Below, one piece after another: positions 50,038-55,879 of a DNA stretch of 64,000 nt. Where the stretch lies: contig JAAKEZ010000008.1 in the NCBI GenBank assembly GCA_018475625.1, positions 1-64,000 on the forward strand. The letters run 5' to 3'. This DNA is from Candidatus Bathyarchaeota archaeon A05DMB-2. Lineage in GTDB: Archaea; Thermoproteota; Bathyarchaeia; Bathyarchaeales; Bathycorpusculaceae. The position numbers and the translations under genes were made by a program. The stretch's first letter is position 1. Each line of letters begins with the position of its first letter. Below the pieces are notes generated by a model. That model had not been told where the DNA came from, made no database searches, and saw only the letters and a list, made by a program, of their open reading frames with translations.

Positions 50038-50315
50038 TTGTCTCAGCCAGTTTATGGAAGAATAACGTACTATCGAATAGGCATCAGAACACAAATGTCC
50101 CGTGAGTGCCTAATTAAATTCACATAGTTACTGCCGCCAAGGCTAGCCAACTCATTGGTCGAAAAGTGTGGTTTGGAAAAGCGGAAACAAGAAGCTTATA
50201 AGGAAGGATCGTAGGTTTCCACGGAAAGAACGGCATTGTACGAGTAAGATTAAAGAAAGGAGTGCCTGGTCAAGCGCTAGGAACACCAGTCGCATTAGTC
50301 AGTCAAAGAATTTGA
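50038..50315 (+). pseudogene. Decayed ribosomal protein eL33 (L35Ae) gene
   Basis: Read in pieces the sequence is L35Ae: from TTG SQPVYGRITYYRIGIRTQMS, RECLIKFT, stop; then after a one-base shift VTAAKASQLIGRKVWFGKAE, an in-frame TAA, then GRIVGFHGKNGIVRVRLKKG and VPGQALGTPVALV. Thus one frameshift near 50115-50120 and one stop near 50200. The order and conserved GKNGIVRVR and KGVPGQALG are those of the family. Either decayed or carrying two sequencing errors. Confidence 0.8.
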
Positions 50316-50390
50316 GCTATCCAACTCTGCTTTGATAGCAACGATCCAAAAGTCCCAGTATAGAAAGTATTCAAAAAAGCAGGGGATTCT

Positions 50391-50498
50391 TTGATTAGAA
50401 ATGCGCGTTTTAACAAGTTAGAATGCAAAAATTGCATATACAACGGGAGTCCCTACTGCTGGAACCAGTGCCCTTACAACATTTGGCGAAATCCCTGA
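50391..50498 (+). CDS. Possible small Cys-rich protein
   Basis: 35 codons from TTG with AGGGG 6 bases before it: LECKNCIYNGSPYCWNQCPY carries CxxC and CxxxC in a zinc-finger-like layout. No family recognised and the frame is short. Confidence 0.35.
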   Translation: MIRNARFNKLECKNCIYNGSPYCWNQCPYNIWRNP

Positions 50499-50853
50499 AA
50501 CTATTCTCCTTAAAGCGTTTTTTCAAGGGGTGCTGTTCTACCCTTAGGATATTTAGACATTCAATCTATTGCTTCCGCTTTTGCTTCGGTAGGAAATTCC
50601 TGTGATATTTTGCTTCCTTACTCGTTATCCTTCACTTTTGGGAACAGAAGCACCACGTAATGCTCTACATATTGTTTCTTTGTGAACTAGATTTTGTTCT
50701 GCGGTCTGATTCATAAATCCCTTTTGTTGTCTATCCTTCTCCAGCCCTTTACTATCTTCATGAAAAATCTCACGTTTTCAGTTGCAGAGGTAATCCACAT
50801 CCGAACAGTTCGCTTTTTCTGTTTCAGTCTTTCTTTTCACATAGCCATCTTTT
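50499..50853. other. Intergenic region
   Basis: No supported gene in the first 280 bases. The end overlaps a second-frame continuation of the zinc-ribbon gene (50778-50969). Confidence 0.35.
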
Positions 50854-51123
50854 CTAAACAGCTTCCTTATCGTGCGTGCTGTAAGACCATTGGAATACAC
50901 TATGATGACCGGCCTCCTTCTTTTCCTGTCTGATATTCCTTCGTCGTGCCCACGCTTGTTTCGGGTCAAAACCGTTTGTCTTGTTGATACTTTCTGAGTG
51001 CTTAAACATGTGTTTTGAAAAGCACGTTTTACAGTAAGCTGGTTTGCCAGCTGTGGGTTTGAAAGGGACCATTGCAGTTTTGCCGCAGTCGGAACATTTA
51101 ATCTCGAACATATTTTTTTGCAT
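50854..51123 (-). CDS. CxxC zinc-ribbon protein with C-terminal extension
   Basis: 89 residues from ATG (MQKNMFEIKCSDCG). The ribbon CSDCGKTAMVPFKPTAGKPA then YCKTCFSKH matches the 47316 protein, including VPFKP. It is followed by about 45 residues with AWARRRNIRQEKKE. A different frame from about 50969 to 50778 also looks coding (RRPVIIVYSNGLTARTIRKL), so a frameshift may have cut a longer protein. Confidence 0.6.
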   Translation of the reverse strand: MQKNMFEIKCSDCGKTAMVPFKPTAGKPAYCKTCFSKHMFKHSESINKTNGFDPKQAWARRRNIRQEKKEAGHHSVFQWSYSTHDKEAV

Positions 51124-51177
51124 CGTAATAATCACCTCTAGTAACTTGAGGCATAATTGAAAAAAGTAAATTTTCAA

Positions 51178-51413
51178 TTATCGCTATTATAAAAGGCTGC
51201 GGCTGACTTAAAGGTTCTCATCGACAAAAGTTTTCCGGATAGCTGTTGGACTTGTTCAAGTCTATAACAGCGATCGCAAATGTTTACAAGTATAATCCTC
51301 TAGAGCACTTTCCCGCGAATATTCTCAACTAACAAGTCATATCAATAAGTCTTGATAAGAGGAAAACAAGTTAATCAAGTATTTATCCAGATTAACGATT
51401 TCTTTCTCTAGAA
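51178..51413. other. Left flank of the mobile element
   Basis: AT-rich intergenic DNA with no gene. With 55601 onward it forms the reconstructed empty site; an inverted repeat CCAAC-CAAAAA-GTTGG lies just right of the insertion (55606-55621). Confidence 0.45.
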
Positions 51414-51428
51414 GGATCAAAATTTAGT
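51414..51428 (+). repeat. Target site duplication, left copy
   Basis: GGATCAAAATTTAGT, identical to 55586-55600. Because the right TIR ends in GGG the true duplication is 13 to 15 bases. Confidence 0.88.
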
Positions 51429-51517
51429 CCCAACCCAACCCAACCCATTCTTCTTCTTCTTCTTCTTAACTACTTACATCTCACATATCACACATATCAC
51501 ACATCTCACACAAAAAA
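51429..51517 (+). repeat. Terminal inverted repeat, left
   Basis: Three CCCAAC-type units, CCCA, six TTC units, then TTAACTACTTACATCTCACA and a CACATATCA-rich inner part ending CACAAAAAA. Identical to the reverse complement of 55500-55587 except for one extra A at 51447. Confidence 0.95.
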
Positions 51518-51527
51518 CGTAGAATAG

Positions 51528-52562
51528 TTAGATTGTTGGTATTCTCGGATTCCAGTCTTTCCTTTCATCCCTCAAATATTTAGCTAATAGTAGAGCTTCT
51601 TCACTGATTAAGGTCTCAAGAGTCTGTCTTTTACCAACCTTCATTCTTGCTATTTCAACGTTAGACTCGAAAAACCCATTAAGCTCTCGCATCAAACCCT
51701 TAGAATCAACATCATTAAGATATTCCCTTTTCCCTATCTTCTTTCTTGTCAAAACCTCATATTTAGTGACAAAATCCTTCTTACTCAACCCGCTAAAGCG
51801 TTGAATCAAAAAATCATCAACCAAGAAACGATAAAGCTCCATCAAATCGCAGACAAGACTCGGCTTATTAAACTGCTCAGAATGCAAGAAACCGAGAAAA
51901 GGCTCAAGTTTAGCGTTAATCAAGGCTTTATGAACCTTCCACGAAAGAAGCTCATAACCCAAATTAAACAAATTATTCAATCCATCATAAGCCTTGAAAG
52001 TCCTTCGATTCTCAGGTCTCAAACCCTCAGAAAACAAGCTGAAAACTTGCTGGAAATAAGCATTAGAGCAGTGCCCTTCATACGTTGAAAGCTTCCTTCT
52101 AAGCCTATTCAAGCTCTCAAGCTCAAGATTCTTAACTCGTTCAATCATGGAAAAATCAAGCTGTCTCAACCCATATTTCTTAAGAACCTGATTCTGTCCT
52201 TGAATCTTGGCTAAAACAAGTTTCTTGGCTATTTCTAAGCCTTTTCCGCTTTTCAAAGCTTCATACTGGCAAACACGAGTTTTAACGTGTGAATCATCAT
52301 CTAACGCTTTAAGCATCGCAACAGGTCTCCCTCTCTGAGTCATAATCAAAACATCAACATCCCAGAAACCCAATGAAGCTAAAGCTCCCGTTGAAACCAT
52401 ATTTCCACTTTTCAGGATAACTTCGCCGATTTCCTTCTCAAATAAGGGAAAACGTTGAATATTTCCTTCTTTATCTTTAACCGTGAATGCGCCTTTTTCC
52501 ATTCCGAGATATGAACCGTGACTGTCAAGAATGATTTTTTGAGTTTTAGAACCCTGAACCAT
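51528..52562 (-). CDS. cas1: Cas1-type integrase (casposase)
   Basis: 344 residues. N-terminal Cas1 beta domain (LDSHGSYLGMEKGAFTVKDK, LIMTQRGRPVA) and helical C-terminal domain with all metal ligands: Glu162 in YEGHCSNAYF, His227 in GFLHSEQ, and Asp239/Glu242 in VCDLMELYRF. In casposons Cas1 inserts the element and makes 14-15-base duplications. Unlike many casposases it ends at KYLRDERKDWNP without an added C-terminal HTH. Starts within the stop of the winged-helix gene (TAATG). No cas2, no CRISPR. Confidence 0.95.
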   Translation of the reverse strand: MVQGSKTQKIILDSHGSYLGMEKGAFTVKDKEGNIQRFPLFEKEIGEVILKSGNMVSTGALASLGFWDVDVLIMTQRGRPVAMLKALDDDSHVKTRVCQYEALKSGKGLEIAKKLVLAKIQGQNQVLKKYGLRQLDFSMIERVKNLELESLNRLRRKLSTYEGHCSNAYFQQVFSLFSEGLRPENRRTFKAYDGLNNLFNLGYELLSWKVHKALINAKLEPFLGFLHSEQFNKPSLVCDLMELYRFLVDDFLIQRFSGLSKKDFVTKYEVLTRKKIGKREYLNDVDSKGLMRELNGFFESNVEIARMKVGKRQTLETLISEEALLLAKYLRDERKDWNPRIPTI

Positions 52563-53200
52563 TATTCTTTTTGCTCCTTTTTCTTTAAGTTTGAACCTAA
52601 TTGTTTTCCCAATTCCAAACTGTCTTTGAGTGGTTGTTTTGAAAACCCTTCTTTATCATATATTTTATTGCAGGCATCGTAAATTTTTAACAGTTCTTCT
52701 TCAGTAGGATTTATTTTTTGGCATTTTTCTAAAAAAGATGCTATAAAAGATTTATCATTAAACATTTCAAATAAGTCTGTAACAAGAGTTTTTAAAAAAT
52801 ACTCTTCATCAAAATATTTTAAATTCACTTTAGGTTTCATTTTTAAAACAATATCTGTAATAGCTTCAATGGGTATCATTCTCCAAAATATATTTGGTAT
52901 ATGACTGAATTTATTTTGTAGAAGTTTCTGAATTACACTTCTAAGCTCCTTTTTTTGAAGATTTCCCTCAATAATAAGTGTAGCCATTCCTTTAAGCGTC
53001 AAAATTGGTTTTTCAGTTCTTCTTTTGTCTAATTGTTTGATTATGGTGAGAAAACCGTCTTTTTTCATTTTGTTAATGTGTCGCCAAACAGTCGCATAGT
53101 TTGATTTAACTCCAGTTTTTTTCAAATATGCTTCTAAGCCATATTTGCTTTTTTGGTCAATCAGGATTGCTTTCAATATTTCTTGGTCTAACCTATTCAT
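52562..53200 (-). CDS. Winged-helix protein coupled to cas1
   Basis: 212 residues. Residues 1-80 are a winged helix (LDQEILKAILIDQKSKYGLE, YATVWRHINKMKKDGFLTI, KPILTLKGMATLI); the rest is helical with many Lys/Phe (IPNIFWRMIPIEAITDIVLK) and may bind DNA or Cas1. It shares TAATG with cas1, so both are made together. It may take over the end-binding job of the HTH domain that is missing from this Cas1, or act as repressor at the palindrome upstream of its ATG. Confidence 0.75.
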   Translation of the reverse strand: MNRLDQEILKAILIDQKSKYGLEAYLKKTGVKSNYATVWRHINKMKKDGFLTIIKQLDKRRTEKPILTLKGMATLIIEGNLQKKELRSVIQKLLQNKFSHIPNIFWRMIPIEAITDIVLKMKPKVNLKYFDEEYFLKTLVTDLFEMFNDKSFIASFLEKCQKINPTEEELLKIYDACNKIYDKEGFSKQPLKDSLELGKQLGSNLKKKEQKE

Positions 53201-53226
53201 TTTTACCGCCTTTTTGAATATATTCT

Positions 53227-53241
53227 ATTCAATCATTGAAT
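53227..53241. promoter_or_regulatory. Palindrome in the divergent promoter of the element
   Basis: ATTCAATCATTGAAT, perfect palindrome with 7-base arms, lies between the leftward cas1 operon and the rightward small-gene operon. TATA-like AATATATAAG (53256-53265) faces rightward. Likely operator for the winged-helix or RHH-like protein. Confidence 0.6.
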
Positions 53242-53293
53242 ATGAACGTAAAGCAAATATATAAGCTTAGTTACAAAGTGGTAATGACCGCCT

Positions 53294-53401
53294 ATGAAAA
53301 CAATTCACCAAACATTTACAGATGAAGAGTTTGAGAAGCTCCAAACTGCGAAGGGAACAAAAAACTGGCATGATTTTATCATGGAGTTGGCGAAGAAATG
53401 A
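53294..53401 (+). CDS. Small antitoxin-like protein of the element
   Basis: 35 residues: IHQTFTDEEFEKLQTAKGTK then NWHDFIMELAKK. The TFTDEEFEKL-AKG-WHDF pattern is that of small archaeal RHH/VapB-type proteins found on plasmids and viruses. It overlaps the next gene by ATGA. May bind DNA as a dimer. Confidence 0.6.
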   Translation: MKTIHQTFTDEEFEKLQTAKGTKNWHDFIMELAKK

Positions 53402-53562
53402 GGAAATGGCATATCCAAAGTGACCCAGAGTACAGAAGCAAAATCGAGTCTTTAAGGAAGATAAAGAGCAAATTAGACAAGAATATAGAGAATTGTAGCA
53501 CAGAGAAGCTTAATTTAAGAAATGCAAGGAGAAAACAGAATGAACAAGCAAAACAACCCTGA
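53398..53562 (+). CDS. Small basic protein of the element
   Basis: 54 residues, highly basic and helical (YRSKIESLRKIKSKLDKNIE, LNLRNARRKQNEQ). Starts in the stop of the preceding gene (ATGA). No family recognised. Confidence 0.5.
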   Translation: MRKWHIQSDPEYRSKIESLRKIKSKLDKNIENCSTEKLNLRNARRKQNEQAKQP

Positions 53563-53845
53563 AACAGGCACATTCTTTGAAATACGGAAATCTGAACGTA
53601 AAGAATGGGAAAAGCTCCGAAGGGCAGAAGAAGCAAAAAATTTTAGGCGAATCATGCGTTTAGCCAAGAAGCTCTGTCCCATTGACTACGTCAACCTCTG
53701 CTATGAAATCCAGTTCAGGCTCCACATCAACTATAACCACACTCAAAAGGCTCCTTACAGCCGATACTTAGACACTTTAATCGGAATCGGGAAACTCAAG
53801 AAAACCGATGATGGAACGGTCAGTTTAGGAGATGCACAGAAATGA
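53540..53845 (+). CDS. Hypothetical element protein
   Basis: 101 residues from ATG with AAGGAG 8 bases upstream. Charged N-terminus (RKSERKEWEKLRRAEEAKNF), then CPIDYVNLCYEIQFRLHINY and YSRYLDTLIGIGKLKKTDDG, a winged-helix-like end. Overlaps the next gene by ATGA. No family recognised. Confidence 0.6.
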   Translation: MNKQNNPETGTFFEIRKSERKEWEKLRRAEEAKNFRRIMRLAKKLCPIDYVNLCYEIQFRLHINYNHTQKAPYSRYLDTLIGIGKLKKTDDGTVSLGDAQK

Positions 53846-54267
53846 GTGAACCTAAAAAACTCAATACTGAAATTATTTTAACATACATTGGAGCAACAAA
53901 AGACAACCTCCGAGCCGATGCTTACAACCACTGGTACAGATTCATTGAGTTTTGCAAACGAAATTCTGGAAAAAACTGGAAAGAAGATATTAGAGCAAAA
54001 CTAAGGTCATGGATAGGAGTCGATTTTAGGTATTTAGATGATTATCTCATGTCTTGCTTATCATGGGGAATTATGGAATTAAATGATGGAAACCTGATTT
54101 TCAAAGGAATACCTGACGATGCTGAAATGCCATGCGAGTTGACTGAGGAGCAACTCAAAGAAGAACTTGCAGAGGAAAATGAGCAGAGAAACAAGCTTGG
54201 AAAGCCCAGAGTCAGCTTAGAAGAGTGGAAAGAGAAGCGTTCTAAACGGTTGAAGCCGATAAAATAG
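53842..54267 (+). CDS. Hypothetical element protein
   Basis: 141 residues, acidic; EIILTYIGATKDNLRADAYN and SWIGVDFRYLDDYLMSCLSW suggest a globular helical domain, followed by a Glu/Lys-rich tail. Paralogue-like in plan to the previous protein (helical domain sensing or adaptor). No family recognised. Confidence 0.6.
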   Translation: MSEPKKLNTEIILTYIGATKDNLRADAYNHWYRFIEFCKRNSGKNWKEDIRAKLRSWIGVDFRYLDDYLMSCLSWGIMELNDGNLIFKGIPDDAEMPCELTEEQLKEELAEENEQRNKLGKPRVSLEEWKEKRSKRLKPIK

Positions 54268-54280
54268 GAGATTTTGAGCC

Positions 54281-54682
54281 TTGCCGAAAGCTAAAAAACT
54301 GAATCCAAGGACTATTTTGGCAATCCATGGTTACGTTAAGAAAGGTTACTCGGCTAACAGGATACAGAAACAGCTTCAAGCTCAACATCTCGGAATAAGA
54401 AGGAAAACGCTTCTTGCAGAAATCCGCAGAGTCAAAGGTCAACCGTCAAAAGCTGAAACCGTCAAGTACATTCCTAAAAAGTATGCTCGGGCAAGATGGA
54501 AAGCGAGAGCCAAAAGAATAAAATTTGAACCGATTAGAGGAAAACAGGTAACTCTCACAGGATTGCATAAAGGAAAATTAATTTCTAAAACTCAGCATGG
54601 CTCAGGAAAAGACCTCTTTCGTTTCGTTAAGGATGAAATGACAGGTGATTATTGGGATGAAAAACCACACATCCACAGCTAA
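54281..54682 (+). CDS. HTH protein of the element
   Basis: 133 residues, TTG start with AGGAG 12 bases upstream. TILAIHGYVKKGYSANRIQK then HLGIRRKTLLAEIRRVKGQ is a resolvase-type helix-turn-helix; a basic SH3-like C-terminus follows (RGKQVTLTGLHKGKLISKTQ). It probably binds DNA, possibly the element ends. Confidence 0.6.
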   Translation: MPKAKKLNPRTILAIHGYVKKGYSANRIQKQLQAQHLGIRRKTLLAEIRRVKGQPSKAETVKYIPKKYARARWKARAKRIKFEPIRGKQVTLTGLHKGKLISKTQHGSGKDLFRFVKDEMTGDYWDEKPHIHS

Positions 54683-55316
54683 AAAACATGTTTCAATCTA
54701 TGGCTCTCACGAAAAGAAGAGTAAAAGATGGGAATTGGAGATAGATGAAAACAACCCTAAAGACATGGAAGCATTAAAGTTGGCTGTTCAGCATCCACCT
54801 GAACAATGTTTTCCACGTAAAAATCCTTACCCAAAGGTTGTTTTGGGCGATTGGGATACAGATATGGTTAAAGTTGACTGGGATGAGAGGTTTTTATGTG
54901 AAGTTAAGCGTTTTTCAAAGATACTTGTTAAGCGTTTTTCCGTTTTAGGTGATGGATTCATTATTTTGAAATCAAGTACAAAAACTCGTAAAATCAGAAA
55001 TGATACTTTTACCGATGTTGCTTATAGTTATAAATCGCCGAGTTATCATACTGTTTTTAACGGTGAAGTTTCTAAGGTTGAATTAGAGAGTATTCTTGCA
55101 TGGTTGTGTTTGTTTACTAAAGATAATGGTTTGATTACATGGTTTCTTTTGCAGTTGATTAAAGGCACGTACACGTTAAGAATTGGGTTTAAAGGTAAAA
55201 AGAAACCGCCTAAGATTGTTTTTCGTTATGGAAATCAAGATAAGCAGATTAAGAAATTTCTTGAGAATAGAGATTTTATTTTGAATTTTTTAATTCAATC
55301 AGAGAAAAAGAGGTGA
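54657..55316 (+). CDS. Hypothetical element protein, largest passenger
   Basis: 219 residues from ATG (MKNHTSTAKKHVSIY), overlapping the previous gene by 26 bases. A beta-rich middle (GDGFIILKSSTKTRKIRN, YSYKSPSYHTVFNGEVSK), a helix (ESILAWLCLFTKDNGLITWF) and a basic end. Highly lysine-rich. Could be a replication or integration factor in place of a polymerase, but there is no recognisable nuclease, primase or helicase motif. Confidence 0.6.
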   Translation: MKNHTSTAKKHVSIYGSHEKKSKRWELEIDENNPKDMEALKLAVQHPPEQCFPRKNPYPKVVLGDWDTDMVKVDWDERFLCEVKRFSKILVKRFSVLGDGFIILKSSTKTRKIRNDTFTDVAYSYKSPSYHTVFNGEVSKVELESILAWLCLFTKDNGLITWFLLQLIKGTYTLRIGFKGKKKPPKIVFRYGNQDKQIKKFLENRDFILNFLIQSEKKR

Positions 55317-55323
55317 AATTAAG

Positions 55324-55491
55324 TTGGTTTGGAAGAGTTGTGGTTATATTTCGTTGACGAAAGATGAAAAGAAGCTTAAAATCGTGGTTAAAAAAGAAAT
55401 TTTCATCGCAGACCTTAACGATGTTAAGGCAGTTTTGAACGGTTGGCTCGATTATACAGAAATTTTTGAGCCATTAGAGATTAAACAGTAA
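55324..55491 (+). CDS. Small element protein
   Basis: 55 residues, TTG start with GAGGTGA 6 bases before it. VWKSCGYISLTKDEKKLKIV and IADLNDVKAVLNGWLDYTEI; a single small alpha/beta domain. Last gene before the right terminal repeat, 8 bases away. No family recognised. Confidence 0.55.
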   Translation: MVWKSCGYISLTKDEKKLKIVVKKEIFIADLNDVKAVLNGWLDYTEIFEPLEIKQ

Positions 55492-55499
55492 TATTTCTC

Positions 55500-55587
55500 T
55501 TTTTTGTGTGAGATGTGTGATATGTGTGATATGTGAGATGTAAGTAGTTAAGAAGAAGAAGAAGAAGAAGGGTTGGGTTGGGTTGGG
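55500..55587 (-). repeat. Terminal inverted repeat, right
   Basis: Inverted copy of 51429-51517 with one fewer base; ends TTGGGTTGGGTTGGG against the target duplication. Confidence 0.95.
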
Positions 55588-55600
55588 ATCAAAATTTAGT
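55586..55600 (+). repeat. Target site duplication, right copy
   Basis: GGATCAAAATTTAGT, identical to the left copy; overlaps the TIR end by two G. Confidence 0.88.
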
Positions 55601-55879
55601 TATAGCCAACCAAAAAGTTGGACCTGCTTTCTTGCAGTGAGCACTTGACTTTATGACGGCAAACAATACCGTTAAACTGAAAAACATATCTATGGCTCAT
55701 GCTTCTTGGTTTCTTACCCTATAATAATGCCCATGTGTATTTCTGTAGAGTTTTTTATGTTTATGTGTCATTTTCCTTTTATGCGGCATTTCTTACATTC
55801 CCCCATCGTGCCTGTGCTCTTTTGCGCGCTAACTGACAGGTAACAGTATAAGTGAGTCCCGCATTATATATAGACGTTA

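Follow-up and report, generated by a model that had tools for sequence, protein, structure and literature searches.

A PolB-less family of casposon-like Cas1 elements in Bathyarchaeia, and a winged-helix gene coupled to cas1 in one of its members

The window analysed here is the whole stretch of 64,000 nucleotides at positions 1 to 64,000 of contig JAAKEZ010000008.1, from Candidatus Bathyarchaeota archaeon A05DMB-2. An earlier note had placed at 51528-53200 a cas1 gene coupled to a gene for a winged-helix protein, and both open reading frames were found there, on the minus strand. They share one base in a TAATG overlap (AATAATGG on the minus strand), and the winged-helix gene is the upstream partner, translated just ahead of Cas1. 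The pair lies inside a complete mobile element of 4.2 kb (51429-55587). The features of the element and its insertion site are as follows.

51415-51428, no strand: left target-site duplication, (G)ATCAAAATTTAGT, 13-15 bp with ambiguous boundary bases; perfect direct repeat with 55587-55600
51429-51518, plus: left terminal inverted repeat, made of (CCCAA)n, (TTC)n and then 9-bp repeats of the ATCACACAT type; pairs with 55500-55597 inverted
51528-52562, minus: Cas1-family integrase (casposase-like), 344 aa, without an extra C-terminal HTH; PF01867, full-length TIGR00287, active-site motifs
52562-53200, minus: putative winged-helix protein, 212 aa; weak HTH_24 and DUF6237 matches, TAATG overlap with cas1
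53225-53241, no strand: 17-bp palindrome TATTCAATGATTGAATA, following a TATA-like box within the winged-helix/cas1 operon promoter
53522-53845, plus: open reading frame, 107 aa, without significant family match
53842-54267, plus: open reading frame, 141 aa, without significant family match
54281-54682, plus: small protein; blastp homologs (E=2e-6 and 3e-13) in the elements at L039 and L047
54645-55316, plus: AEP/PrimPol-like protein (candidate replication protein), 223 aa; homologs, motifs, weak profile and model resemblance
55324-55491, plus: open reading frame only, 55 aa
55500-55587, minus: right terminal inverted repeat, pairing with the left inverted repeat
55587-55600, no strand: right target-site duplication, perfect direct repeat with the left copy

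The identity of the 344-residue protein as Cas1 is unambiguous. It matches PF01867 (E=1.2e-47) and TIGR00287 (E=1.3e-49, model positions 2-324 of 327), and its residues E162, H227, D239 and E242 stand at the active-site motifs and are invariant among 13 family members. An alignment of the family profile with the solved CRISPR Cas1 8d3p extends to position 339 of 345 (residues 11-343 of 347). Since solved CRISPR Cas1 chains are covered to their ends, the protein has no additional C-terminal domain, and the final 60 residues are an ordinary Cas1 tail; these alignments bear out the earlier description of a Cas1 that stops at its normal C-terminus without an HTH. The accompanying premise, that casposases often have an extra C-terminal HTH, holds for family 2 and some family-3 casposases but not for family 1 and two family-3 members, which are without one (PMC4046053). 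The assignment of the 212-residue partner as a winged-helix protein is plausible but weak: its matches to HTH_24 (E=0.01) and DUF6237 (E=8e-4) both fall below cut-off, and a single-sequence model (pLDDT 67) gave no usable fold match.

The terminal inverted repeats are about 90 nt long and near-identical, with a 98-nt match between 51420-51517 and 55500-55597 at 97% gapped identity (E=3.9e-40), and this inverted repeat occurs in just two copies genome-wide, both at the element ends. Directly outside the C-rich ends GGATCAAAATTTAGT is repeated perfectly in direct orientation, over 13-15 bp according to the assignment of the boundary bases; the maximum among 200 random pairs from the same locus was 9. 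The element also differs in G+C content (36% vs 43%). In genome G072, of the same genus, the genes from either side (77-96% protein identity) are contiguous and the element is absent. G072 lacks 50040-55818, which comprises the element and 1.4 kb of its left flank (50040-51415), and therefore provides an empty locus, not an exact empty site. The element in the window was apparently inserted recently. The absence of 50040-51415 from G072 points to an older insertion or a deletion adjoining the element.

The extreme ends of the element (51429-51446 and 55570-55587) are telomere-like, with the G-rich strand 3'-terminal. The elements at L035, L042, L044, L045, L047, L049 and L051 likewise end in (CCCAA)n or (CCCAAA)n, and those of other elements in CCT, CA or CT repeats; such repeats might possibly serve as G-quadruplex or slide-back ends. 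Each inverted repeat also holds about four tandem, iteron-like 9-bp units (51476-51514 and 55505-55539). A CRISPR array at this locus was considered and rejected, the repeats at 51476-51514 being part of the inverted repeat.

A survey of 256 genomes of the class gave long matches to this Cas1 (at least 270 residues, at least 46% identity) in 16; about 29 others had only fragments, of degraded copies. In named records the hosts of the family are Candidatus Bathyarchaeota. In a phylum sample searched with the family profile, full-length members scored 512-593 bits, against no more than 157 for any other sequence, so that the family is sharply bounded. Its full-length members have 338-357 residues, all without a fused HTH. 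At least 11 relatives across the class have inverted repeats on both sides of a Cas1 of this family, and in nearly all of them the target duplication is perfect and 13-15 bp long: inverted repeats and perfect duplications occur together at L037, L039, L042, L044, L045/L157, L046, L047, L049, L050 and L051, and inverted repeats surround the element at L035. Convincing element ends were looked for at L036, L041, L043 and L062 and none were found. A+T makes up 85% of the target duplications, whose centre loosely follows AAATTT. Here and in at least 10 relatives Cas1 is the sole recognisable recombinase between the inverted repeats and target duplication, and we infer that it is Cas1 that moves the element.

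No open reading frame of PolB size is present in the window element, where the longest besides cas1 encodes 223 residues, or in the elements of its relatives, where the longest encodes at most 354. The 223-residue protein (54645-55316) has homologs at L035, L037, L039, L044, L045, L047, L050 and L051, and weaker ones at L043, L046 and L062, with D78, D80, S111 and R179 (DxD, Ser and TLR motifs) conserved. This conserved second gene of the element resembles the AEP-like primases of PF24387 in its DxD motif and in a weak profile match, its relatives giving E=2.6e-4 to 0.09; it differs in falling below the curated cut-off and in that the third catalytic motif was not identified. A model of one relative (pLDDT 60) found PrimPol and LigD polymerase domains closest among otherwise weak matches (Z ~5). 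From these sub-threshold profile matches, short motifs and a low-confidence model, the product would rather likely be a minimal AEP/PrimPol-type replication protein.

With casposons the element has in common a Cas1 with intact active-site motifs, terminal inverted repeats and a target duplication, here of 13-15 bp; casposases produce duplications of 14-15 bp (PMC6977970). It has no family B DNA polymerase such as makes casposons self-synthesising, and for this reason we call it casposon-like only, despite its ends, duplication and Cas1. Nor does it have the HTH fused to the Cas1 C-terminus of family 2, or, within the element, the cas2, cas4, effector gene or CRISPR array of an adaptation module. 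Family 1 casposons (thaumarchaeal, with protein-primed PolB) are similar in their HTH-less Cas1, inverted repeats, target duplications and archaeal hosts of the same phylum, but they carry PolB and several are inserted in the EF-2 gene, whereas the family described here is PolB-less with A/T-rich targets, and the window Cas1 belongs to a separate, 100%-supported clade. Family 2 casposons (A. boonei, M. mazei and Nitrosotalea type) share duplications of 14-15 bp, inverted repeats and helix-turn-helix genes within the element, and one locus of this type, L132, also has an overlapping winged-helix gene upstream of Cas1. Their Cas1, however, carries a fused HTH, which the M. mazei casposase requires in vitro, and they have PolB and HNH genes and tRNA targets. 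The adaptation Cas1 proteins of CRISPR systems in Bathyarchaeia and other Thermoproteota are alike in length, in their full-length domain and in having no fused HTH, and they give the top profile scores outside the family; they differ in sequence (about 30% identity) and in context, the window locus having inverted repeats and a duplication in place of Cas2, Cas4 and an array.

A directly upstream, co-directional winged-helix gene was found at six of the 18 loci (the window, L044, L045, L046, L051 and L061), at L045 again with a one-base overlap with cas1. The encoded proteins are very divergent between loci. The gene before cas1 at L035 is of unclear type, and there is no winged-helix gene in front of cas1 at L036, L037, L039, L042, L047, L049 and L050, although L036 and L047 have one elsewhere. 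Homologs of the window protein amount to three matches in the 256 genomes, itself included, none of them beside another Cas1 of the family, and none were found in plasmids or viral contigs. A conserved partnership of this protein with the HTH-less Cas1 was rejected on two grounds, the upstream position at only six of 18 loci and the lack of a homolog beside any other Cas1. The promoter palindrome has arms of 8 and lies at -42 to -25 of the start codon (arms of at least 8 arise in about 4% of shuffled sequences); it was looked for in the inverted repeats and is absent from them, and comparable promoter palindromes occur at L045, L051 and L035. Judged from its position and this palindrome, autoregulation of the winged-helix/cas1 operon is the likeliest role of the protein, with a somewhat better than even chance of being correct. 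Because the coupling recurs at six of 18 loci with very divergent proteins, some functional link between the winged-helix protein and Cas1 is likely; the recurrent coupling could equally reflect a protein complex.

The earlier note had interpreted the pair as a split casposase, with recognition of the ends and integration divided between two proteins. On this reading the winged-helix protein would recognise the element ends, for example the 9-bp repeats, recruit Cas1 and so stand in trans for the HTH fused to family-2 casposases. That Cas1 lies between inverted repeats with a target duplication agrees with this proposal, as do the TAATG coupling in the window and at L045, the upstream winged-helix genes at L044, L046, L051 and L061, and the tandem 9-bp repeats as putative binding sites. 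Removal of the HTH abolishes integration by the M. mazei casposase: cut back to residue 341, which makes it roughly as long as the window Cas1, the enzyme is inactive (PMC6977970), and for this reason we keep the proposal open for experiment. Against it, the absence of the HTH is family-wide, and five relatives (L037, L039, L042, L049 and L050) have no winged-helix gene before cas1 yet are bounded by inverted repeats and by perfect duplications of 13-15 bp. The HTH-less Cas1 is the rule in this family and in family-1 casposases, which work without a fused HTH, so the window locus shows no split of its own. At L132, which has a split PolB, a 409-residue Cas1 that is extended at its C-terminus in the manner of a fused HTH is itself preceded by the overlapping winged-helix gene, and the upstream gene is therefore no stand-in for the fused HTH. 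A split of the HTH by descent was rejected, the fused region (KSTLWYMKK motif) being unrelated in sequence to the upstream winged-helix proteins, and conservation of the winged-helix protein does not follow that of Cas1. We consider the split casposase improbable. An accessory role in target selection or excision, modelled on IHF in CRISPR adaptation, seems no less doubtful: the winged-helix protein would bend or mark A/T-rich target or end DNA and be swapped between elements, as might fit the recurrence of the coupling with divergent proteins and the A/T-rich duplications, but the duplications look the same whether or not an element has the upstream gene.

The remaining alternative is that this Cas1 is a part or relic of a CRISPR adaptation module and not of a transposon. 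Outside the family the CRISPR Cas1s are its closest relatives by profile score (at best 157 bits, against 82-90 for casposases), which hints at a CRISPR-derived origin; the trees are compatible with either origin. In a tree of 58 sequences the family forms one clade (support 100/100) and groups with families 1 and 2 of the casposases (89/84), but this grouping dissolves when family-1 casposases are left out, and an AU test did not reject a grouping with Bathyarchaeial CRISPR Cas1 (p=0.44). A module at this locus is nevertheless very hard to reconcile with the lack of Cas2, Cas4, effector and array, with a Cas1 flanked by inverted repeats and target duplications in the window and in 10 relatives, and with a separate second Cas1 in the same genome. 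That second Cas1 (G000:C98:2101-2994, on a 3-kb contig; PF01867 E=4.2e-75) is probably the CRISPR one.

The Bathyarchaeial family of PolB-less Cas1 transposons is real, as seen in the gene pair, the ends, the duplications, the distribution and the absence of PolB. We regard 51429-55587 as probably a compact, recently inserted, PolB-less casposon-like Cas1 transposon of Bathyarchaeia. From its ends and from casposase biochemistry, Cas1 would bind the terminal inverted repeats and insert them, with a stagger of 13-15 bp, into A/T-rich target DNA, and so produce the duplication. The AEP-like protein would probably act in replication or gap filling, in the place of PolB. The winged-helix protein would most likely autoregulate the winged-helix/cas1 operon or, at most, serve as a dispensable accessory that binds DNA; the integrase would not need it as its other half.

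Casposons are defined by Cas1 together with PolB and are regarded as the origin of CRISPR adaptation; to our knowledge all described Cas1 transposons carry a DNA polymerase. In the literature searched we found no report of casposons in Bathyarchaeia, and a PolB-less family of Cas1 transposons is not reported there. A compact, widespread PolB-less family with clean ends suggests that Cas1-driven transposition needs no co-encoded PolB. It also offers many natural HTH-less casposase-like enzymes for comparison with the HTH-dependent M. mazei enzyme, through which the role of the HTH becomes directly testable. More speculatively, and with little weight, these transposons may form a lineage of their own outside the casposons, perhaps one in which a CRISPR-type Cas1 became (again) a transposase; a minimal primase-polymerase would then take the place of PolB in replicating the telomere-like (CCCAAA)n ends, and a tailed virus would use the same Cas1 family.

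Several further observations concern individual loci. At L035 (5737-13243) an element end, a duplication and the next element end abut (GGGTTTGGGGG-TAAAGTTTTAT-CCCAAACCC), which suggests tandem or nested insertions at one site. L046 and L060 have a second, 78% identical Cas1 C-terminal fragment 1 kb downstream of cas1, a remnant of a neighbouring copy. L062, on a contig binned as bacterial (Candidatus Levybacteria), has a Cas1 of the family and an AEP-like gene, through misbinning or transfer. On two IMG/VR contigs (L067:8001-9035 and L068:8001-9035) a Cas1 of the family stands beside the minor tail, neck and tail genes (PHROGs) of a tailed virus, which may use Cas1 as its integrase.
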